Shown here: positions 1,552 to 11,674 of the stretch, in pieces
Layout of the letters: every line of letters begins with the position of its first letter
Position numbering within the stretch: position 1 is the stretch's first letter
Source: Pseudohongiella nitratireducens
GTDB taxonomy: Bacteria; Pseudomonadota; Gammaproteobacteria; Pseudomonadales; Pseudohongiellaceae
Direction of reading: 5' to 3'
Length of the DNA stretch: 64,000 bases
Assembly (NCBI RefSeq): GCF_001642735.1
Contig: NZ_LWHM01000005.1
Location: 1-64,000 of the forward strand
Position numbers and translations under genes: made by a program
The notes under the pieces: generated by a model
Databases searched by the model: none
Told to the model about the DNA's origin: nothing
What the model saw: only the letters and a program-made list of their open reading frames with translations

Positions 1552-2460
1552 CTATTCGACCATAGAGATTGGTTTGGGGGCCAGGATTTCGAGTGCTTTG
1601 GGTAGCACACGAAAATGCGCCGGTGTGTTGGTTACCGGTTCGCCATCAGCATGAATTGCCATCACTTTACGCCCGGTAGACACGTTAATGCTCTCGGCCT
1701 GAAGGTTAAACACTCGCGCGTTGTACCGTTGTCGGCCGTCACGTAACAATGGCGCTAACGTCAACAGGTCCCATACCGTCTGCGGGCGCAAACTGTACAA
1801 TGATAATTTGCCATCATTGATGCGTTTCTTTTCATCAATGACATTACCACCACCATAATAGCGTCCGTTACCAATTGCGATTTGGATAGAACGCTGACGA
1901 TGAGGGACACCATCGGCAGTGATAGTGACTTTAAATTGCTTGATTCGGGCTATTGCGGCGAAAAACGCCTTCAGATAGCTAAATACGCCCCACTGCTTTT
2001 TAACGTCGTCGGTTAACTCTTCAGTCACCTTGACGCCCAACCCCAGGTGCGCGACGTTAAAAAAGTAGTTGTCGTTAACCATACCCAGGTCAATCCACTG
2101 ACGCTCACCCGATACGATGGCGTCAAAGGCTTCTTCAAGCCCATTGCAAAGCCCTAATGAACGCGCCAGATCGTTGGCCGTGCCCAGGGGCAATATGGCC
2201 AGCAACAAACCACACTCATGAAGCGTTCCAGCCATCGAACTGATTGTGCCATCGCCGCCGCCGACAATCACCAAATCCAGATGGTCTTTACGCTCCAAAA
2301 CCGCCCGGCGGCTATCTTCGGGGGTATTTGACAGCAATCGCTCAATCGCAATGCCAGCTTGCTCTAATTGTGCAATTCCCTCGTCCAATTGTACGCCGAC
2401 ATCCTGGCGGGCTTTGGGATTAATGATCAGCAGAGCTTGACGTATTTTTGTAGAATTCAT
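1552..2460 (-). CDS. YegS-like lipid kinase (diacylglycerol kinase catalytic domain)
   Basis: This 302-residue soluble protein of the YegS/BmrU/DAGK_cat superfamily phosphorylates a lipid alcohol with ATP. Visible signatures are the N-terminal LLIINPKAR, the nucleotide-binding GGGDGTISSMAG (residues about 66-77) and GTANDLARSL (about 92-101). The C-terminal lid region contains the HADGEP motif. Length fits the family (about 300). The preferred lipid cannot be deduced. The ATG at 2460 is the only start that keeps the conserved first beta strand, and the 96 bp upstream would hold the promoter. Confidence 0.88.
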   Translation of the reverse strand: MNSTKIRQALLIINPKARQDVGVQLDEGIAQLEQAGIAIERLLSNTPEDSRRAVLERKDHLDLVIVGGGDGTISSMAGTLHECGLLLAILPLGTANDLARSLGLCNGLEEAFDAIVSGERQWIDLGMVNDNYFFNVAHLGLGVKVTEELTDDVKKQWGVFSYLKAFFAAIARIKQFKVTITADGVPHRQRSIQIAIGNGRYYGGGNVIDEKKRINDGKLSLYSLRPQTVWDLLTLAPLLRDGRQRYNARVFNLQAESINVSTGRKVMAIHADGEPVTNTPAHFRVLPKALEILAPKPISMVE

Positions 2461-2556
2461 TCGGCCTATACTTTCCCTGTTTGCTCATTGGGCGCTGTGC
2501 GGTCCCGCTGCGAGCACGTCAGAGGGCAAATGTACACTAACACACTCCCAACTCAC

Positions 2557-3348
2557 TCACACCGTGCTTCCATTGAACACCAGTTTCATTAAATCGGGGT
2601 GCTTAAATTCGTAGTTTAACAACTGCTTTACTTTATGATTGCTGATTATCTTGCCAACACTGGCATTCGATTCCCCAAATTCTGGCGGCGTGTTGTCTAT
2701 CAGATTCGCTGCACGAGTATAAAACTCCCTTTTGCCAGGGTGCGTGTCAGCACAACAATTGAAAATCTCGTCCCAAATTTGCTGCTCAACAATTTCCCTG
2801 AGAATCCCAACACAGTCATCTCGATGAATCAGGTTAACGGGCGCATCTGGATTCTGAACGACACGTTTTGATTTAAAAAAATTCCCCGGGTGTCGACGAT
2901 AACCGATGAGCCCGCCAAACCTGACGATAGTGGTTTCAGTGCCACGGCAGTGCTGGAACAAACTCTCAATTTCTAACAACGGGCTTTCTTTGTAATATTC
3001 AGTATCAGACTCAGTCATTATTCTCTTACTGTTTTCATAAACAGAAGTGGAACTCACAAAGATGATTTTCTGGATATTGGAAGCCTCAATCCTGGCGACG
3101 AGATTAGAAAAACCATCAATGTTTTTTGAAGTGATATTAACGATCAGGATATCAGATTGAAGAAAGTCTTTAACGCTGTCGGTCAACGTGTCAATGTTGA
3201 CGATGAATGGCTTGGCGCCAATCGATGCCAGGTCCGTGATGCGATTCTCTGAGGTTGTTGAAGCCTTGACTTCATACCCTGCTTTGATGAAATCCTGGGC
3301 TAATGGCAAGCCAAGCCATCCGGTGCCTAGTATGCTTATGGTGTTCAA
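2557..3348 (-). CDS. YeeZ-like SDR-superfamily NAD(P)-binding oxidoreductase/epimerase
   Basis: This 263-residue Rossmann protein starts with the dinucleotide-binding turn ISILGTGWLGLPLA (residues about 4-17). It continues with the extended-SDR pattern VSSTSVYEN (about 99-107) and RFGGLIG (about 147-153). It resembles the YeeZ group of atypical SDRs, whose substrate is unknown. The start is TTG at 3348, preceded by AAGGA at 6 nt and overlapping the stop of the upstream small gene by 4 nt, so the two are translationally coupled. Local codons are more AT-rich than in the main chromosomal genes, which fits a captured cassette. Confidence 0.75.
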   Translation of the reverse strand: MNTISILGTGWLGLPLAQDFIKAGYEVKASTTSENRITDLASIGAKPFIVNIDTLTDSVKDFLQSDILIVNITSKNIDGFSNLVARIEASNIQKIIFVSSTSVYENSKRIMTESDTEYYKESPLLEIESLFQHCRGTETTIVRFGGLIGYRRHPGNFFKSKRVVQNPDAPVNLIHRDDCVGILREIVEQQIWDEIFNCCADTHPGKREFYTRAANLIDNTPPEFGESNASVGKIISNHKVKQLLNYEFKHPDLMKLVFNGSTV

Positions 3349-3584
3349 TTCATATCCTTAATTTTATGACAAATCTGGTCGAGCCTGTAAGCAGAGAATG
3401 AGAAACCGCCAATACCAGACTTGGGTGCATCCCCTGATTTAAACGGACTCAGTGACATATTGATTCCTTCCGCATTGAATAGTTTGGCAGCTTTCGCTGC
3501 GGGCTCAGGGACAATCGACAGAAGTTGGTTATAGCACGCGACTAGATTTCGATTGACATCAAGTATATGTGTTTCGATAGACAT
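3345..3584 (-). CDS. Small hypothetical protein coupled to the SDR gene
   Basis: I do not recognise this 79-residue protein. It begins MSIETHILDVNRNLVACYNQ, is soluble and mildly hydrophobic, and ends with SFSAYRLDQICHKIKDMN. The ATG at 3584 is favoured because GGGAGG stands just upstream; the longer reading to 3644 runs into the attC-like site. It overlaps the SDR start by 4 nt, so the two form a cassette-like mini-operon. The attC-like element lies 33 bp upstream of its start. Confidence 0.6.
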   Translation of the reverse strand: MSIETHILDVNRNLVACYNQLLSIVPEPAAKAAKLFNAEGINMSLSPFKSGDAPKSGIGGFSFSAYRLDQICHKIKDMN

Positions 3585-3617
3585 TATGCCTCCCTGGGCA
3601 ATGCAATTCCACGTAGC

Positions 3618-3692
3618 GCATAACGCCGCTGTAGGAGTCGGCAACGCAATTGTCGTCCGAGCTCGCAGAGAGACTTGACGGCCTGGTTATGC
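3618..3692 (-). repeat. attC-like integron recombination site, 75 bp
   Basis: Read on the minus strand the site begins with GCATAAC (R'') and ends with GTTATGC (R'), exact inverse complements as in integron attC sites, especially Vibrio-type ones. Inside are arms GAGCTCGG and CCGACTC that pair with one unpaired C. The extra base gives the extrahelical G on the opposite strand that attC hairpins show. Inner GCCG/CGGC pairs lie next to the R boxes. The orientation agrees with cassettes read leftward, away from the integrase remnant. The assignment rests on structure by eye, not on a covariance model. Confidence 0.6.
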
Positions 3693-3702
3693 AGCACCCA
3701 GA

Positions 3703-3918
3703 TGGAAAGTCGGCAGCACTGATGAATTTCTGGGGCTGACCCCGGAAGAGGCTGCGTACATTGAGATGAAACTTGCGCTAAGCCATAACCTGAGGCCGCA
3801 CAGACTCCACAACAAGTTGAGTCAGATCGAATTAGCTAAAATGGTTCACTCCAGCCAGTCACGAATAGCGAGAATGGAAGCTGGCGAGCCTCACGCAGCA
3901 ACCAATTTCTTAACCTGA
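3703..3918 (+). pseudogene. XRE-family HTH antitoxin fragment
   Basis: The frame reads WKVGSTDEFLGLTPEEAAYI, then EMKLALSHNLRP..KLSQIELAKMVHSSQSRIARMEAG. This is the N-terminal half of an XRE/HigA2-type antitoxin up to the recognition helix. There is no start codon (an in-frame stop is at 3676), and the frame ends in foreign sequence at 3916-3918, where it meets the 3' end of higA on the other strand. Both ends are therefore broken and no cognate toxin is visible. Confidence 0.7.
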
Positions 3919-4179
3919 AGCTCACCTCTATGTTGCTCGGCATGCCAAAGTTCGTATTGGGACTGTTGGTTGAGCCAGCTTTCAGCTGACGTATTGAATG
4001 CGATGGAAAGTCGCACAGCCATTTCTGGACTGACTCCGGCGCGACCGTTGAGAATTGCGCTGAGAGTCTTCCTGCTGACGCCGAGCGCCTCAGCCGCATC
4101 CGTCACAGAGATGCTTAACGGCTCAAGGCACAGTTCTTTAATGATCTCATCCTGGATGAGGAGGATTGTGCATTAACAT
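3891..4179 (-). pseudogene. higA: higA antitoxin with a single-base frameshift
   Basis: From the ATG at 4179 (GAGG 8 nt upstream) the frame reads [10 protein letters not shown], then hits TGA. Removing one base at about 4149-4150 restores [14 protein letters not shown] and joins [37 protein letters not shown] and the conserved HigA tail ending at 3891. The rest is complete at about 95 residues. Translation from the in-frame GTG at 4106 could still give a 71-residue protein with the whole HTH, so some DNA binding may survive. Together with the truncated higB it is most likely a dead type II toxin-antitoxin pair. Confidence 0.82.
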
Positions 4180-4188
4180 GATGATACC

Positions 4189-4344
4189 TCAATGATAATC
4201 TTCATAATTGACGGCCTCAGCATCTTCACCGTGAAAAACAAATGTGACTCGCCAGTTCCCGCTTACCATTACTGACCAAGTGCCGGAACGGTTGCCAGTG
4301 AGTTCATGTGGCCGAAGCCCTGGCAGATCCATATCCGGCGGCCA
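4189..4344 (-). pseudogene. higB: higB (RelE-superfamily) toxin, C-terminal remnant
   Basis: The last 47 codons read MDLPGLRPHELTGNRSGTWS, then VMVSGNWRVTFVFHGEDAEA and VNYEDYH. This is the HigB/RelE C-terminal half with the SGNWR..F signature. The stop at 4189 lies 9 bp before higA, the normal toxin-first higBA order. Upstream of 4344 the frame meets a stop, and from about 4400 the DNA belongs to the group II intron. About half of a typical 92-residue HigB is missing, so no active toxin is expected. Confidence 0.75.
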
Positions 4345-4411
4345 TCAGCCGCGTACTGCTGCGACTTGTGTACGCCCAGCATGGGCAGACCCGCGAGGGG
4401 CTGTCTGCGTC

Positions 4412-4669
4412 GAGCTAGATCACTGGATTCGGCGCAAAGTGCGGACGGCCTATTGGCGACAGTGGCGAAGGCCGCGCACCAAAGCAAGAAACTTGATGGC
4501 CCGAGGTGTAAGGGTGCAAGCCGCCGTTGCGTGTGGAACTACCAGCAAAGGGCCATGGCGTAGCTCGAAGACTCCAGGGATTAATCAGGTTCTATCTGAT
4601 GGCTATTTAAAATCCAAAGGGTTGTTCGCGCTGCGTGATGACTGGGTCAAGCTTCATTGTACTAAGTGA
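4412..4669 (+). pseudogene. Group II intron-encoded reverse transcriptase/maturase, C-terminal remnant
   Basis: The frame from about 4412 reads ELDHWIRRKVRTAYWRQWRR, then RNLMARGVRVQAAVACG and GPWRSSKTPGINQVLSDGYL, ending at 4669. This is the maturase (X) and DNA-binding end of bacterial group II intron proteins. The reverse transcriptase domain is absent: sequence left of about 4405 is higB remnant in the other orientation. The stop is followed directly by intron domains V and VI, as in intact introns. Confidence 0.8.
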
Positions 4670-4670
4670 A

Positions 4671-4740
4671 ACGCCCTGTGCGGATCCGCATGCAGGGTGT
4701 TGTGGGGGCTGAGGGTTAGATACCCTCGGCTATCCGATTA
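4671..4740 (+). ncRNA. Group II intron domains V and VI (3' end of a truncated intron)
   Basis: Two base positions after the maturase stop comes a GC-rich hairpin whose arms GCCCTGTGCGGA and TCCGCATGCAGGGTG pair in domain V style. A second hairpin, GCTGAGGGT/ACCCTCGGC, with a short unpaired CCGATTA tail, fits domain VI and the intron 3' end near 4735-4740. Domains I-IV upstream of the ORF are missing, so splicing and mobility should be lost. Confidence 0.65.
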
Positions 4741-4780
4741 GCCGAACTCCATAGCAGTATACCAGCGGAGTCACCAATTA

Positions 4781-5485
4781 TTATGTTCCTGCCACGTCCG
4801 TAGCCATCGCGATAAAAATCACTGTAACACCACTTATTAAGCATACCCCAGACGCTGCACCTAAGGCCCACATTCCGAACAGGCTCAAAAAAAGCGCACC
4901 GCCCAGCCCACCGACAAAGAAGGCAATCAGCACAGACAGCAACAGGCCGAACTTCCAGCTCTTAACTTCACGCCCCTGAAGCCGATTGCCGAGCAACGCT
5001 CCCAGATCGGTGACTATTCCAGTAACATGAGTCGTGCGCAGTGTCAGACCGCGATAACTGCTCGCCATTGCATTTTGTAACCCGCAAGCCGTTGCCGCGA
5101 TCGGGATTGCTGCATTCAAGCCCTTTAATGCTAGAAACATTGTCACGAACAGCAACGCGCCTTCAATCAGCAAGATCGCACCGTAGCGACGCCTCATTCT
5201 GAATAAGGTGTCACGTAGAATAATCCCGGATACCAAGGCACCACTGAAAAAACCGGTCACAATGGAAGTGACCAGTAAAAGATCTTTGAAGTCGACATCG
5301 GATAAAACAATACCAAGATGTGATACGGCACCGCTCATATGGCTTACAGGCACCGCAAAAAAGCTAAGCATAACTACATTCACATAGCCTGCGACCAGGG
5401 AAAGTAGGGCCGCTCCGAAGAACACCCAGATCCGGCTCTGTTGCATGAAGTCATCATGCTTCTGCTCAACCTCAAAAAATGGCAT
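4781..5485 (-). CDS. YoaK/DUF1275-family membrane protein
   Basis: This is a 234-residue inner-membrane protein with about six predicted hydrophobic segments. It has the DUF1275 hallmarks: an early GYVNVVMLSFF segment, SHMSGAVSHLGI (around residue 50), and the central AATACGLQNAMASSYRG and RTTHVTGIVTDLGALLGNRL motifs. Function in this family is unproven. The start is at the ATG at 5485 because AGGA stands 8 nt before it; ten extra residues upstream lack a ribosome site. It sits between the group II intron remnant and an attC-like site, and its leftward orientation fits an integron cassette. Confidence 0.82.
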   Translation of the reverse strand: MPFFEVEQKHDDFMQQSRIWVFFGAALLSLVAGYVNVVMLSFFAVPVSHMSGAVSHLGIVLSDVDFKDLLLVTSIVTGFFSGALVSGIILRDTLFRMRRRYGAILLIEGALLFVTMFLALKGLNAAIPIAATACGLQNAMASSYRGLTLRTTHVTGIVTDLGALLGNRLQGREVKSWKFGLLLSVLIAFFVGGLGGALFLSLFGMWALGAASGVCLISGVTVIFIAMATDVAGT

Positions 5486-5537
5486 TAAAAAATTCCTGTC
5501 GTATAGTGCCAGCAACAGCCCGACTCACGAATAAAAG

Positions 5538-5611
5538 CCCTATCAGATATGGTGGCTAGCGTCCGTATTCACGCGCCAGCGCAGCTGGTCGCGTGCAATT
5601 GATGGTTAGGG
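5538..5611 (-). repeat. attC-like integron recombination site, 74 bp
   Basis: On the minus strand it starts with CCCTAAC and ends with GATAGGG, an imperfect inverse pair. A central stem CACGCG[A]CCAGC / GCTGGCGCGTG is perfect except for one unpaired A. That leaves an extrahelical T on the other strand, as in known attC hairpins. Its length is nearly the same as the site at 3618-3692, and it separates YoaK from the toxin-antitoxin pair exactly where a cassette boundary is expected. Confidence 0.5.
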
Positions 5612-5676
5612 TGGGTTGACAAGCACCCATCTGGAAACCATAATGGAACCGATATGCAACCATATGAGGCTTGAGC

Positions 5677-5919
5677 ATGGCCAATGTTACCTTTAAAAAC
5701 ATACCCGATGACCTATACGAGCAACTGAAGCAGGCCGCCAATGCGCACCATAGAAGCGTAAACAGCGAACTGATTTATTGCTTGGAAAGGACATATAAAC
5801 CAACCCAGTTCTCTGCAGCCGAGCTTGCCAGCAAAGCAGCCGAGCTTCGCAGCCACGTAACAGTAGCAAGACTGGATATTGACGAAATCAATGAGGCCAA
5901 GAACCAGGGCAGAGAATGA
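5677..5919 (+). CDS. Arc/FitA-type ribbon-helix-helix antitoxin
   Basis: This 80-residue protein starts MANVTFKNIPDDLYEQLKQA, the Arc/FitA-like DNA-binding beta strand and first helix, followed by NAHHRSVNSELIYCLERTY. The C-terminal tail (LDIDEINEAKNQGRE) should wrap the PIN toxin. The start is the ATG at 5677 with GAGG 7 nt before; a TTG at 5671 is less likely. Its stop overlaps the toxin start by 4 nt. Such antitoxins normally repress their own promoter, which would lie in 5612-5676. Confidence 0.85.
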   Translation: MANVTFKNIPDDLYEQLKQAANAHHRSVNSELIYCLERTYKPTQFSAAELASKAAELRSHVTVARLDIDEINEAKNQGRE

Positions 5920-6326
5920 TTGTAGCGGACACTAACACCATCGCATATCTGTACCTGCCAACGGCACAAACAGATGATGTAGTCTCGTTGCTGCACCAAG
6001 ATCCTCATTGGGTTGCGCCTTTGCTGTGGCGAAGCGAATTCCGAAACGTACTGGCGTTGTACATTAAAAAGGGCATTATTGATGTAAGCACCGCAATTGC
6101 TATGCAATCACAGGCGGAACAGCAGCTTGCCGATAACGAATACACCGTTAACTCCATAGACGTGCTGGCACTTGCTTCTGACAGCGGCTGCTCAGCTTAT
6201 GACTGCGAATTCATATCGCTGGCAAATTCATTGAGTTTAAAATTGATTACGGGCGATAAAAAACTAATTCAAATTTTCCCACAAGTCGCAATGACTGCCG
6301 GGGATTACTTACGAATTGAACCCTAA
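5916..6326 (+). CDS. PIN-domain ribonuclease toxin (VapC/FitB-like)
   Basis: This 136-residue PIN domain has the catalytic acids in place: Asp5 in MIVADTNTIAYLY, the Glu in LLWRSEFRNVL (about residue 41), an Asp in SAYDCEFISLA and the last Asp in LITGDKKL. Family members cleave RNA in a magnesium-dependent way and are held inactive by the partner antitoxin. It overlaps that gene by 4 nt. No lesion is visible, so this is the one apparently working toxin-antitoxin module of the island. It runs opposite to the other presumed cassettes. Confidence 0.88.
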   Translation: MIVADTNTIAYLYLPTAQTDDVVSLLHQDPHWVAPLLWRSEFRNVLALYIKKGIIDVSTAIAMQSQAEQQLADNEYTVNSIDVLALASDSGCSAYDCEFISLANSLSLKLITGDKKLIQIFPQVAMTAGDYLRIEP

Positions 6327-6327
6327 C
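6321..6327 (-). other. Possible cassette-end recombination box
   Basis: GTTAGGG on the minus strand fits six of the seven positions of the GTTRRRY recombination box and matches the R'' box of the attC-like site at 5538-5611. It marks the right edge of the presumed PIN/Arc cassette, next to the region where attI would lie. A seven-base motif can arise by chance. Confidence 0.3.
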
Positions 6328-6336
6328 AGTCTGTTA

Positions 6337-6355
6337 AGGAGGTCTGCGACCTCCT
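6337..6355 (+). terminator. Rho-independent terminator after the PIN toxin
   Basis: A perfect stem GGAGGTC/GACCTCC with a TGC loop and flanking A/T pair is followed by the T-rich TAATTATTATT. It sits 11 bp after the toxin stop. The remaining 180 bp up to the integrase fragment is AT-rich. I see no further gene there; this is where attI and the integrase promoter would be expected. Confidence 0.6.
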
Positions 6356-6536
6356 AATTATTATTAGCAGGTTACCTCATAATCTTTTATTAGTTAAAGT
6401 GTTTATAGGTAACCGCTTGAAATGTATGTAATAATTAACTCTTCCTGGATGGCTTTGAAATTATTCATGTCAATACCTTCTCAGCAGCCTGCTAAGCTAT
6501 CCATAGACGCCTAGCACCAGGGAGGGTTGCCACGTC

Positions 6537-6812
6537 ATGTCGAAATCACCGTTCCTACAGTCGATCTCAGATCACATGCGCACGCGCGGCTATAGCAAAC
6601 GTACCATTGAAACTTATACTTACTGGATAAAGCATTTCATACTGTTTTGCGATAAACAACATCCTGACAGGTTAAGTGAAACTGATGTAGAGCGTTTTTT
6701 GACGTATTTGGCGGTCAGGCGCCATGTATCACCGGGTACCCAGGATCATGTTTGGGAAATAAGGCAAGCGTCGTTTGGTGACACTGGTTATACGAGCCGC
6801 AAAGCAGGCTGA
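6537..6812 (+). pseudogene. intI: Integron integrase (IntI) N-terminal fragment
   Basis: Residues 1-69 (MSKSPFLQSISDHMRTRGYS, KRTIETYTYWIKHFILFCDK, VERFLTYLAVRRHVSPGTQ) match the SAM-like N-terminal DNA-binding domain of integron integrases. They include the RYS-RT-TYxYWIKxFI pattern that separates IntI from other tyrosine recombinases. After GTQ at about 6743 the homology stops and the frame ends at 6812. The catalytic Arg-His-Arg-Tyr domain and the IntI-specific helix are gone. GGAGG lies 10 nt before the ATG. The gene reads rightward, away from most leftward cassettes, as in integrons. Confidence 0.72.
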
Positions 6813-6880
6813 CATCCGCAAAGAGGTAATGTGTCCCACGCTGCGCGAGGTGTCAGAAGCCCATTGAGTTCGCTTTGGTG

Positions 6881-7231
6881 TCAGTCAGACAGGTAATATT
6901 CCACACTCACTCCCACCCCCGAATTTTCTTCAGGTGGGGGTTGTTGCGGTCTCGATCGGCGATACTGAACTGGCCTTGAGACGCCTGTTTGATCTTGCCC
7001 AGTTGGCTGCCTGAGTCGTCGGCAAATTTCAGGGCGGCGGTGCGGGCTTCCTTGATGGCCTCCTCGATCATGGTGGGTTTGACGTCATTCAGCCAGGCCG
7101 CGAACGGTGACCGTGCGTTCATAGTCCTTAACTGCCAGGGTATAATGACCGGCTACCCATGCCAGACCCAACAGGCCAAGAAACAGGGATGTACCTATTA
7201 TCAAGGCGCTTGAACGTTGCACTGAGCTCAT
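6881..7231 (-). pseudogene. SIMPL-domain (DUF541/YggE-like) gene with internal deletion and frameshift
   Basis: From the ATG at 7231 the frame gives MSSVQRSSALIIGTSLFLGL, a membrane anchor, then YERTVTVRGLAE, the normal SIMPL N-terminus. It stops at 7085. The next frame gives LNDVKPTMIEEAIKEARTAA and SIADRDRNNPHLKKIR, the normal SIMPL C-terminus. The roughly 130 residues between are missing; GGCCTG/GAATGAC sequences at the junction suggest deletion between short repeats. A second frameshift in the G-run near 6915 separates KKIR from VGVSVEYYLSD, which ends at 6881. Confidence 0.8.
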
Positions 7232-9675: not shown

Positions 9676-10731
9676 CTACGGCAAACCCATCGCCTTAAGC
9701 GCGCCAGCCAGCCGAGCGGCAGACAAGGCCACTCGTTGCAGTGAAATCTCTTGCATGCGATTGCGGTAATCATCTTCGATGCTGACAGTCACTTCATCCG
9801 TGTTGGCAGGGGTTTCAAGCACCTGGTTCTTGATGGGGGCTGTGTATACATCAGCATGCAGGAACTCCCGGCTCTCCAGCAACCATGTGCCGGGTATGAA
9901 TCCCTGAGCAGACGGTTGCGGATCAAGTTGCTCGAATACAGATAACAGTTGCTCCCAGCTGCTTCCCCGTAATGCCTGGTCCCAAAGTGAATGCAGGTTA
10001 CCCCGCGTTGCCAGCCTGACCATGTTGCCGCCCCTGTCTCCTTCAGGGAAATGTGTTCCGTGATAGGAGGCGCCGGCATGCAATGGCTGGTGAATATCGG
10101 CGCCGAGGTGTAAATACCAGCACAGTGCAATGGCCAACTCAGCCTGCTGTTGCGCATTGGCACTGTCTAGTGGTTGCTTTAGTATTGACTCAGAGGTGAT
10201 CAGAGCTGTCAGCACGTTGTCACTGAGTCTGCTCTCGCGGATGCGGCTGTCGCTCGGACCATTGATGTCTGGCAAGAAGGTACCGTCCAGATAAACGTTA
10301 CCTTGCAGAGGCACATCAGCGCGCACCCAGCGGCCATCGATCCAGTGCCAGTTCGGGTGGTTGAACTGAGCTCTGGCCGCATCCGGAATACCACGTGCTA
10401 TATCTGGCCAGTATCCTGCTCTGGCAAACAGCCAGCGCTGCTGATCTTTATTATCAGCGTCACGCAACCGTTCAGGCATAGCCGATAAAAAGTCTTCTGC
10501 AAAGCGTGGGTGGTGGCGCAAGACTGCAACCCAATAATCCTGCTCCTGCTCCGTTAATTGGTCAAACACCAGCGCCGCTGATCGCTCATGACCCAACGCG
10601 TCCCAGCTATGTGCGGGTGCCGATAACAGAAACGTCAGTGCCATGATGCAGAGGGCGGGTAACGCTTTCAGAAAACATGCCTGGTACTGACAGCGAGCGG
10701 GAGAGGGTCTGGGTGTTAAGTGAGCGAACAT
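9676..10731 (-). CDS. Secreted S1/P1-type nuclease
   Basis: This 351-residue exported zinc nuclease degrades single-stranded RNA and DNA, releasing 5'-nucleotides. A long signal peptide ends at AHS before W43, which becomes the mature N-terminal Trp zinc ligand of this family, followed by H48 in WDALGHERS. Further ligands appear in AGYWPDIAR, WHWIDGRW, WYLHLGADIHQPLHAG, FPEGDRGGN and NLHSLWDQ, so all three zinc sites look intact. The ATG at 10731 has GGAA about 9 nt upstream. Its transcript may start behind or be influenced by the predicted RNA at 10832-10938, whose terminator ends about 100 bp before this start. Confidence 0.92.
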   Translation of the reverse strand: MFAHLTPRPSPARCQYQACFLKALPALCIMALTFLLSAPAHSWDALGHERSAALVFDQLTEQEQDYWVAVLRHHPRFAEDFLSAMPERLRDADNKDQQRWLFARAGYWPDIARGIPDAARAQFNHPNWHWIDGRWVRADVPLQGNVYLDGTFLPDINGPSDSRIRESRLSDNVLTALITSESILKQPLDSANAQQQAELAIALCWYLHLGADIHQPLHAGASYHGTHFPEGDRGGNMVRLATRGNLHSLWDQALRGSSWEQLLSVFEQLDPQPSAQGFIPGTWLLESREFLHADVYTAPIKNQVLETPANTDEVTVSIEDDYRNRMQEISLQRVALSAARLAGALKAMGLP

Positions 10732-10831: not shown

Positions 10832-10938
10832 CAAAAAAAAGCCCACGCCGGGGGGCGGCGTGGGCGAGGTCACCCATCAATGGAAAAGGGGAGAGTCAGT
10901 TCCATTTGAGTCTGCTGATGTTGAGATCAGCCACTCAC
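10832..10938 (-). ncRNA. Predicted sigma54-dependent small RNA, about 105 nt
   Basis: The stretch has no plausible ORF but shows a full transcription unit: promoter at 10948-10963 and terminator at 10833-10865. The RNA would fold into three hairpins. The first is GCTGAT/ATCAGC with a six-base loop. The second is AATGGAA/TTCCATT with a loop holding CTCTCCCC. The third is the 10-bp terminator. The exposed CU-rich loop could pair with GGAG-type ribosome sites, a common sRNA mode. Alternatively it is a 5' leader/attenuator of the S1/P1 nuclease gene just downstream. I know no named family that matches. Confidence 0.5.
10833..10865 (-). terminator. Strong Rho-independent terminator
   Basis: On the minus strand GCCCACGCCG pairs perfectly with CGGCGTGGGC around a CCCCC loop and is followed by eight T residues. 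No minus-strand protein gene precedes it, which is why a small RNA or leader is proposed. Confidence 0.85.
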
Positions 10939-10947
10939 TTTAGTAAA

Positions 10948-10963
10948 TGCATTTGCCGTGCCA
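10948..10963 (-). promoter_or_regulatory. Sigma54 (-24/-12) promoter
   Basis: Minus-strand TGGCACGGCAAATGCA matches the TGGCACG-N4-TTGCA consensus with one difference (A for the first T of TTGC). GG and GC are exactly 10 bp apart, as required. The predicted start is near 10938. Such promoters need an enhancer-binding activator; a palindrome upstream at 10998-11013 is a candidate site. Confidence 0.6.
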
Positions 10964-10997
10964 GTTTTTTCTGAGGAAGTAAAAATATATAAATAAC

Positions 10998-11013
10998 TGA
11001 CAACGTGTTGTCA
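10998..11013. promoter_or_regulatory. 16-bp perfect palindrome, candidate activator/operator site
   Basis: TGACAACGTGTTGTCA is a perfect 7-2-7 inverted repeat centred about 67 bp upstream of the predicted sigma54 start and about 217 bp upstream of the VOC gene. It could bind the activator for the sigma54 promoter. The surrounding 10866-11221 holds no protein gene that I can support. Confidence 0.5.
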
Positions 11014-11221
11014 TTAAATGCTGTTTTGAGCGCATGTGGCTGCTATTACCACGTCAATTAAACGCTATCGTTGCAAAATACTCCTGGCTTTTCCGTCGAC
11101 AGGAACCGTTATTGTTAAAATGACATTACAAAAAAGCCAGCCGACGAACATTTCAGCTTAAAAATGGCGCAGATATCACCTTGTTTGCACAGCACTGGTG
11201 CAAATCATTTGGAGGACAGAC

Positions 11222-11674
11222 ATGTCACTGACACCTTTCCATTTAGCCATTCCTGTTCATGACCTCGTGGCCGCCCGAAACTTTTATGGGGGCACCATGG
11301 GACTGGCGGAAGGGCGCAGTTCAGATTGCTGGATTGACTACAATCTGTTCGGGCATCAACTGGTGGTCCACCAGGTTGAGCTGGGTAAGCAGGCAGAAAA
11401 AGGCAATGCGACCCATACCCCAGAGGCAGGGCGCAATGCCGTCGACGGACATGATGTGCCTGTGCCACATTTTGGTGTCGTGTTGGAAATGCAAGCCTGG
11501 CAGCAATTAGCAACAAGGCTAAAGAACGAAGGGGTAAGCTTTGCCATCGAACCTTACATTCGCTTTCAGGGGCAACCCGGCGAGCAGGCGACTCTGTTTT
11601 TTTATGACCCTTCTGGCAATGCCCTGGAGTTCAAAGCGTTCCGGGATATTGAATCTCAATTGTTTGCCAAGTAA
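11222..11674 (+). CDS. VOC-superfamily (glyoxalase/extradiol dioxygenase-like) protein
   Basis: This 150-residue protein has two beta-alpha-beta-beta-beta modules. The first starts [19 protein letters not shown], with the His that usually binds the metal. The second has [11 protein letters not shown] and ends [17 protein letters not shown], giving the second His and the terminal Glu ligand. The substrate cannot be inferred. The ATG at 11222 has GGAGG at 6 nt; an upstream in-frame codon at 11198 has none. It is monocistronic. Confidence 0.82.

Follow-up and report, generated by a model that had tools for sequence, protein, structure and literature searches.

Several bacterial small RNAs (sRNAs) – CrcZ/CrcY, GlmY and Qrr among them – are sigma54-dependent, and the leaders of nas operons have ANTAR proteins as their antiterminators. 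The closest parallel to the locus discussed here is NrsZ of Pseudomonas aeruginosa, described in the available parts of two papers as an sRNA under NtrB/C and RpoN control, about 226 nt long and processed, which is encoded in the ntrC–PA5126 intergenic region and activates rhlA (PMC8395346, PMC9308961); its motif is given as ACAGGCAG (PMC9308961). In Enterobacteriaceae, according to the available portion of another study, an sRNA of nitrogen limitation is released from the 3′UTR of the glutamine synthetase mRNA (PMC9731577), and the target RNAs of ANTAR proteins are characterised, in the accessible text on the subject, by hexanucleotide loops with A1 and G4 (PMC3369931).

The window analysed here – a stretch of 64,000 nucleotides of Pseudohongiella nitratireducens – appears to encode a conserved RNA of about 105 nt, representing a new family of a known regulator kind. 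A sequence-only reading had proposed an unannotated sigma54-driven sRNA at this place, and all the elements that it listed (a -24/-12 promoter, a palindrome, hairpins and a ten-pair terminator followed by eight T residues) are present where it had put them, but on the minus strand, the strand having gone unstated; nor does any ORF of at least 60 aa overlap the RNA, as that reading had also observed. The features are as follows.

10833–10938, minus strand: sRNA gene, about 105 nt, running from the predicted +1 (near 10938) through the T-tract and supported by fold z and covariance-model matches.
10907–10937, minus strand: hairpin SL1, with both-sided changes at 8 of 11 pairs within the genus.
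10879–10906, minus strand: hairpin SL2, a 7-pair stem, invariant in the genus, with the 14-nt loop CUGACUCUCCCCUU.
10888–10895, minus strand: core of the SL2 loop, CUCUCCCC, present as GACTCTCCCC in 15 of 15 genus sequences; other genera have CUCUCCC or something close to it.
10870–10878, minus strand: linker GAUGGGUGA, invariant in the genus.
10833–10865, minus strand: intrinsic terminator, a 10-pair stem (10865–10841, nine pairs being G–C) followed by T8.
10948–10963, minus strand: near-perfect sigma54-type -24/-12 promoter TGGCACGGCAAATGCA (GG-N10-GC), with a counterpart at 15 of 15 genus loci.
11186–11202, minus strand: NtrC-type box TGCACCAGTGCTGTGCA (TGCAC-N7-GTGCA, 0 mismatches), whose start is separated from the -24 element downstream by 239 nt.
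10998–11013, no strand assigned: palindrome TGACAACGTGTTGTCA, centred at about -67 and found at this promoter only in the window's species.
9676–10731, minus strand: S1/P1 nuclease gene (PF02265, E 5.9e-20), downstream of the RNA on the same strand.
11222–11674, plus strand: VOC/glyoxalase-family gene (PF00903, E 2.5e-06), divergent from the RNA.

Judged from its sequence, the window RNA is like NrsZ in its control, an NtrC/RpoN type predicted here from promoter and box, but it is not a member of that class: it is about 105 nt long, lies elsewhere in the genome – with the VOC and S1/P1 genes, rather than ntrC, as neighbours – and lacks the motif reported in the available part of the NrsZ literature. 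CrcZ/CrcY, GlmY and Qrr have sigma54 control in common with it, yet none of them reaches the Rfam cut-off for the window RNA. The glutamine synthetase 3′UTR sRNA, which we take to be GlnZ, is similar as an sRNA of nitrogen limitation (a role that is predicted here), although, going by what is available of its description, the window RNA differs in having a promoter of its own.

Nor do the databases hold a closer relative. In the region of the RNA, the best Rfam 15 score is 20.8 bits against a gathering cut-off of 50, and no family reaches the cut-off at eight related loci, which bears out the earlier statement that the RNA resembles no known family. Searches of the literature on Pseudohongiella sRNAs and marine nitrogen limitation returned nothing on it, and among the matches listed, mainly from open-access literature, no title or abstract opening names it. 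The sole Rfam match in the whole window lies elsewhere, at 4669–4738 on the plus strand, where a group II intron (RF00029, 47.1 bits) is found beside a short ORF (4244–4669); this is perhaps a remnant, as no long reverse transcriptase is evident by eye among the six ORFs of at least 110 aa overlapping 2000–6900.

Read from 10938 to 10833 on the minus strand, the RNA has a folding energy of -43.9 kcal/mol, compared with a mean of -27.05 for 200 dinucleotide shuffles (z -5.5, none as low); the z of six related RNAs ranges from -3.4 to -6.4, and that of the opposite (plus) strand of 10920–11020 is +0.67. The fold comprises two hairpins, a small third one and then the terminator, and the GGGU of the linker can pair with the GCCC of the terminator arm around the loop GACCUC. 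Terminator-like sites between 9000 and 13000 show no excess in number (four, against a shuffle mean of 4.0), the longest stem among the four being that of the RNA's own terminator. The minimum-energy fold of one relative (L018) is without SL2, and the single-sequence folds of L053, L059 and L061 deviate from the model. The SL1 loop, CUCAAC in the window, reads ACUCCCC, AUUCCCC or ACUUCCCC in relatives, all of them C-rich; its CCCC, kept in 14 relatives, is lost in the window's species (10937–10907).

A DNA search of 95 genomes recovers the element from the window genome, from all 14 others of the same genus and, weakly, from 4 of the remaining 80. The covariance search in relatives that the sequence-only reading had suggested, with a model built from 14 of the 15 genus sequences, gives matches in all 15 genus genomes, with promoter, hairpins and terminator retained in every one and with compensatory changes in the stems. 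Both-sided changes occur within the genus at 11 of 27 pairs, with 97.1% of cells paired, a level that none of 500 shuffles attains, in a model-fitted alignment (A2) of a kind that leans towards structure; from an unfitted MAFFT alignment of 14 of the 15 sequences (A1, omitting L020, which has an inserted C in a loop), RNAalifold predicts 24 pairs, five of them with both-sided changes. Compensation within the genus is seen in SL1 and in the terminator, where it affects 3 of the 9 modelled pairs (4 of 9 with other genera included). Among the invariant parts are the SL2 stem, the linker and the loop GACUCUCCCC, which is found in 15 of 15 genus sequences and ranks among the most conserved parts of the RNA. 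Because SL2 is invariant within the genus, compensatory support for it comes from other genera, in some of whose sequences each of its seven pairs is changed on both sides.

In the wider family, model R1 has matches at E up to 1 in 30 of 137 genomes: 15 of 15 in Pseudohongiella, 10 of 14 in the genus here called g5, the single genome of g7 and 4 of 84 in g4, with none in the 23 genomes of g2, g3, g6 and g8. With 107 genomes lacking a match, the RNA is not family-wide. Two of the g4 matches (L062, E 0.67, and L064, E 0.9) were judged false, as was a second, weak match in the window genome (E 0.22). Each of the remaining 13 other-genus loci is preceded by a sigma54-like promoter and includes a hairpin with CUCUCCC or something close to it, as well as an NtrC-type box with at most three mismatches (at most two in 11 of the 13), figures that stand without a shuffle comparison. 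At two of these loci, L060 and L063, inspection by eye also reveals, further upstream and in tandem with the matched RNA, a second sigma54-like promoter and, following it, another short RNA, which has CUCUCC in a hairpin and CUCCCCC as its terminator loop.

Once 12 other-genus sequences are added, 22 of the 27 pairs show both-sided changes, again in a model-fitted alignment, and covariation with other genera reaches 0.552, compared with 0.158 in shuffled and at most 0.076 in slid alignments. The input to alignment A3 consisted of 12 of the 15 genus sequences (L010, L014 and L017 being omitted) and the 13 other-genus loci; 24 of these 25 sequences passed E 0.01, the exception being L063. Alignment A4 held 12 of the 15 genus sequences, with the same three omitted. 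A pattern of promoter, spacing and terminator arms occurs in 19 of the 137 family genomes, with 0 reversed-control matches among those listed. At the level of the order, model R2 finds 62 of 390 genomes at E up to 0.1, but of the 23 loci outside the family that were inspected most were judged by eye to be bare terminators and a few are leaders beside nas-type genes. With an E limit of 10, model R3, from which the terminator had been removed, recovers four of the 13 other-genus loci (L051 of g7 at 4e-4, L050 at 0.05, L058 at 0.29 and L053 at 1.1), and its chance matches L100 and L101 score E 0.5–0.7. Homology of the window RNA with the g5 RNAs is thus plausible from the sequences, though not proven.

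The regulation that these elements suggest can be followed upstream. A match to TGGCA[CT]N5[AG]TGCA stands at the corresponding place at 15 of 15 genus loci, and the gene for sigma54 itself was found in all 15 genomes, so the sigma54-type promoter proposed earlier is borne out. Upstream of all 15 promoters lies an NtrC-type box, perfect in the window: mismatches summed over the 15 come to 26, while shuffles average 47.6 and in 100 rounds never fall below 41; a control pattern in the same test gives 54 against 51.4. In 10 of the 15 promoters the box carries two or three mismatches, and its distance from the -24 element, -137 to -168 in 14 of them, is greater in the window (-239). A candidate IHF site between box and promoter has a mismatch sum of 22, compared with 26.8 in shuffles (lowest 19). 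Perfect boxes occur at five places in the 3.4-Mb window genome, against one for the reversed control, but some three would be expected by chance on an estimate from ten fixed bases, so this count is near chance. The five places are the window RNA, the interval between glnA and ntrB, a site before glnK–amtB and two others; the glnA–ntrB and glnK–amtB sites are classical NtrC places, and the promoter before glnK–amtB, TGGCACGGCGCATGCA, is nearly identical to that of the RNA. Taken as a sequence signal, the box at 15 of 15 promoters strengthens the predicted link to nitrogen, and the RNA is probably switched on in nitrogen starvation.

What does not survive from the sequence-only reading, which otherwise holds in its overall outline – an unannotated, conserved sRNA gene with a sigma54-type promoter, a terminator and a putative nitrogen link – is the palindrome as activator site. 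The best matches to it in the 14 relatives have 4–5 mismatches, no better than shuffles, and it is the NtrC-type box that is conserved instead; we therefore reject the palindrome as a conserved activator site. Its general form, TGACAAN4TTGTCA, occurs at five places in the genome, against two for the reversed control, and three of the other four lie inside long ORFs. The exact form, TGACAACNNGTTGTCA, turns up at one further place in the genome, some 105 nt ahead of an ORF that we take to be nadA-like (L003), so the palindrome may still be a real regulator site in this species. The sequence there, at 1501–1516 of L003 (G000:C28:137799–137814), is TGACAACTTGTTGTCA, which has TGACAACNNGTTGTCA in common with the window palindrome.

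We regard as probable, taken as a whole, that this is a free-standing gene for a trans-acting sRNA dependent on NtrC and sigma54. Under nitrogen limitation, phosphorylated NtrC would bind the upstream TGCAC-N7-GTGCA box and activate sigma54-RNA polymerase at the -24/-12 promoter, giving an RNA of about 105 nt that would end at the strong intrinsic terminator. This RNA would act in trans, the unpaired C-rich SL2 loop GACUCUCCCC pairing with G-rich ribosome-binding sites – joined, in relatives, by the second C-rich loop in SL1 – and the pairing, in which Hfq bound to the U tail would probably take part, would lower translation.

The SL2 loop is complementary to GGGGAGAGUC, a Shine–Dalgarno-like sequence, and its place among the most conserved parts agrees with the earlier suggestion that it could mask ribosome sites; the other half of that suggestion, a conserved GGGGAGAG target, did not materialise. 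The pattern GGGGAGAGT-N1..14-ATG occurs at 10 places in 6 genomes, against 2 in the reversed control, and none of the 10 recurs across species. GGGGAGA before ATG has 62 places in 3 genomes, against 34 in the reversed control, and 30 of the 62 were inspected. The look for targets that had been recommended therefore yielded no site before start codons conserved across species, and from these start-codon-proximal searches no conserved mRNA target was accepted; since none was found, it is from the anatomy of the RNA that we infer target repression by loop pairing.

Two individual candidates were also set aside. Pairing with ilvC (duplex -16.8 kcal/mol) is good only in the window's species, one of the 13 genomes in which the gene was found; its ribosome site there, CTGGGGAGACTCATG in L139 (G000:C11), pairs with the SL2 loop at 10 of 11 bases. 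For a pntA-like gene, the energy is at or below -11 kcal/mol in 5 of 9 genomes, although two of these share one upstream sequence and the gene is not matched in the window genome. Likewise rejected was a small peptide encoded over SL2, ATGGAACTGACTCTCCCCTTTTCCATTGATGGGTGA (MELTLPFSIDG and a stop, 11 codons), whose third codon is a stop in 2 of 15 genus sequences and undergoes non-synonymous changes in further ones. The RNA structure is thus conserved without conserved coding.

Of the other readings of the locus, the one that the surroundings most invite is a cis-acting leader, or attenuator, of the S1/P1 nuclease gene, in which transcription driven by NtrC and sigma54 would stop at the terminator unless some signal permitted read-through. 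The nuclease gene begins about 100 nt downstream of the terminator and adjoins the RNA at 15 of 15 genus loci, so this part of the alternative raised by the sequence-only reading stands; outside the genus it falters, the next ORF being a different one at the g7 locus L051 (which has VOC- and arfB-type neighbours, and after which about 500 nt of contig follow) and lying on the opposite strand at the g4 loci judged real (L053 and L061). On the upstream side, the VOC gene is present at 14 of the 15 genus loci, the fifteenth (L017) having a short upstream sequence, and an arfB-type gene stands between VOC and RNA in two relatives compared (L016 and L051), the window having no such ORF. A leader would also fit the situation in g5, where 7 of the 10 matching loci are flanked by two genes of the NMT1_2 family (by similarity and Pfam), which we take to be nasS and nrtA, and so occupy the leader position of a nitrate operon; the other three (L057, L060 and L063) have no nrtA-like gene within the available flank. 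The GGGU-N6..8-GCCC pairing of linker and terminator is reminiscent of P2, the overlapping hairpin found in such leaders. As far as the accessible description of the nas operon goes, ANTAR-controlled leaders resemble the window RNA in having hairpins before an intrinsic terminator, the last of which overlaps it (PMC3369931), and the ANTAR-type leaders of the genomes studied here have a sigma54 promoter as well. What the window RNA lacks is the A1/G4 hexaloop: its loop is GACCUC, and the loops of the genus, 6–8 nt long, are all without these letters, whereas the seven nas-type leaders of g5 have AAUGUA or AAUGUG. It also differs from those leaders in not preceding nas-type genes and in occurring where no ANTAR protein is matched, such a protein being found in 10 of the 15 genus genomes, and one of the other five is a single-contig assembly rated 100% complete. 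Given the differing neighbours in other genera, the missing hexaloop and these five genomes, we consider the window RNA most likely to be an sRNA in its own right, and a role as nuclease leader, being less likely, seems to us improbable.

The P2-like module might instead make the RNA a decoy that captures an ANTAR protein (NasR) and thereby adjusts nitrate assimilation when nitrogen is short, much as EutX is an ANTAR-binding sRNA. The related g5 RNAs do sit in nas-type operons, and a NIT-ANTAR protein is encoded near nas-type genes in the window genome, which also has ANTAR-type leaders of its own, beside the NIT-ANTAR and nitrite-reductase-type genes. Nonetheless, the loop of that genome's nrtA-type leader is AAUGGC, as against GACCUC, and five of the 15 genus genomes carry the RNA without any ANTAR match; we consider this reading very improbable indeed. 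Rather less remote, albeit still doubtful, is that the RNA, instead of pairing with mRNAs, sequesters a regulatory protein with affinity for C-rich loops, on the model of CrcZ, which sequesters Hfq. Such a role would account for the two hairpins with similar loops in 14 relatives, for the other genera that replace the stems yet keep the loop sequence, and for the failure to find a conserved mRNA target; on the other hand, the loop is an ordinary anti-Shine–Dalgarno-like sequence, and we know of no bacterial regulator that recognises CUCUCCCC. In the window genome, at L114 (G000:C20:78000–90000), an nrtA-type and a nirB-type unit diverge next to a NIT-ANTAR protein, both of them headed by a sigma54-like promoter and an ANTAR-like leader.

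For the reading as an independent sRNA, the likeness to nas leaders bears on where the RNA came from. As 7 of the 10 g5 RNAs lead nitrate-assimilation genes, sRNA and attenuator may share ancestry; the sequences suggest this perhaps, and the terminator-free model backs it weakly. Tentatively, and as a possibility that we would not yet favour, a single nitrogen-starvation RNA module might exist in two forms within one family, as the terminated leader of nitrate-assimilation genes at those seven g5 loci and, in Pseudohongiella, g4 and perhaps g7, as an sRNA that stands alone and acts in trans. C-rich loops are common to both forms, and the hexaloop letters, present in all seven leaders, are lost in Pseudohongiella, but these letters do not split the forms cleanly, L057, L060 and L061 having A1 and G4 without an nrtA-like neighbour.

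The locus offers a candidate nitrogen-responsive sRNA in a gammaproteobacterial genus that has received little study; its promoter, activator box and pairing loop are defined and open to experiment, and its likeness to nas leaders would allow one to study the route from attenuator to regulatory RNA. If the two forms do belong together, they would represent an attenuator that has turned into a trans-acting regulator, or doubles as one, and relatives alive today would display the steps.
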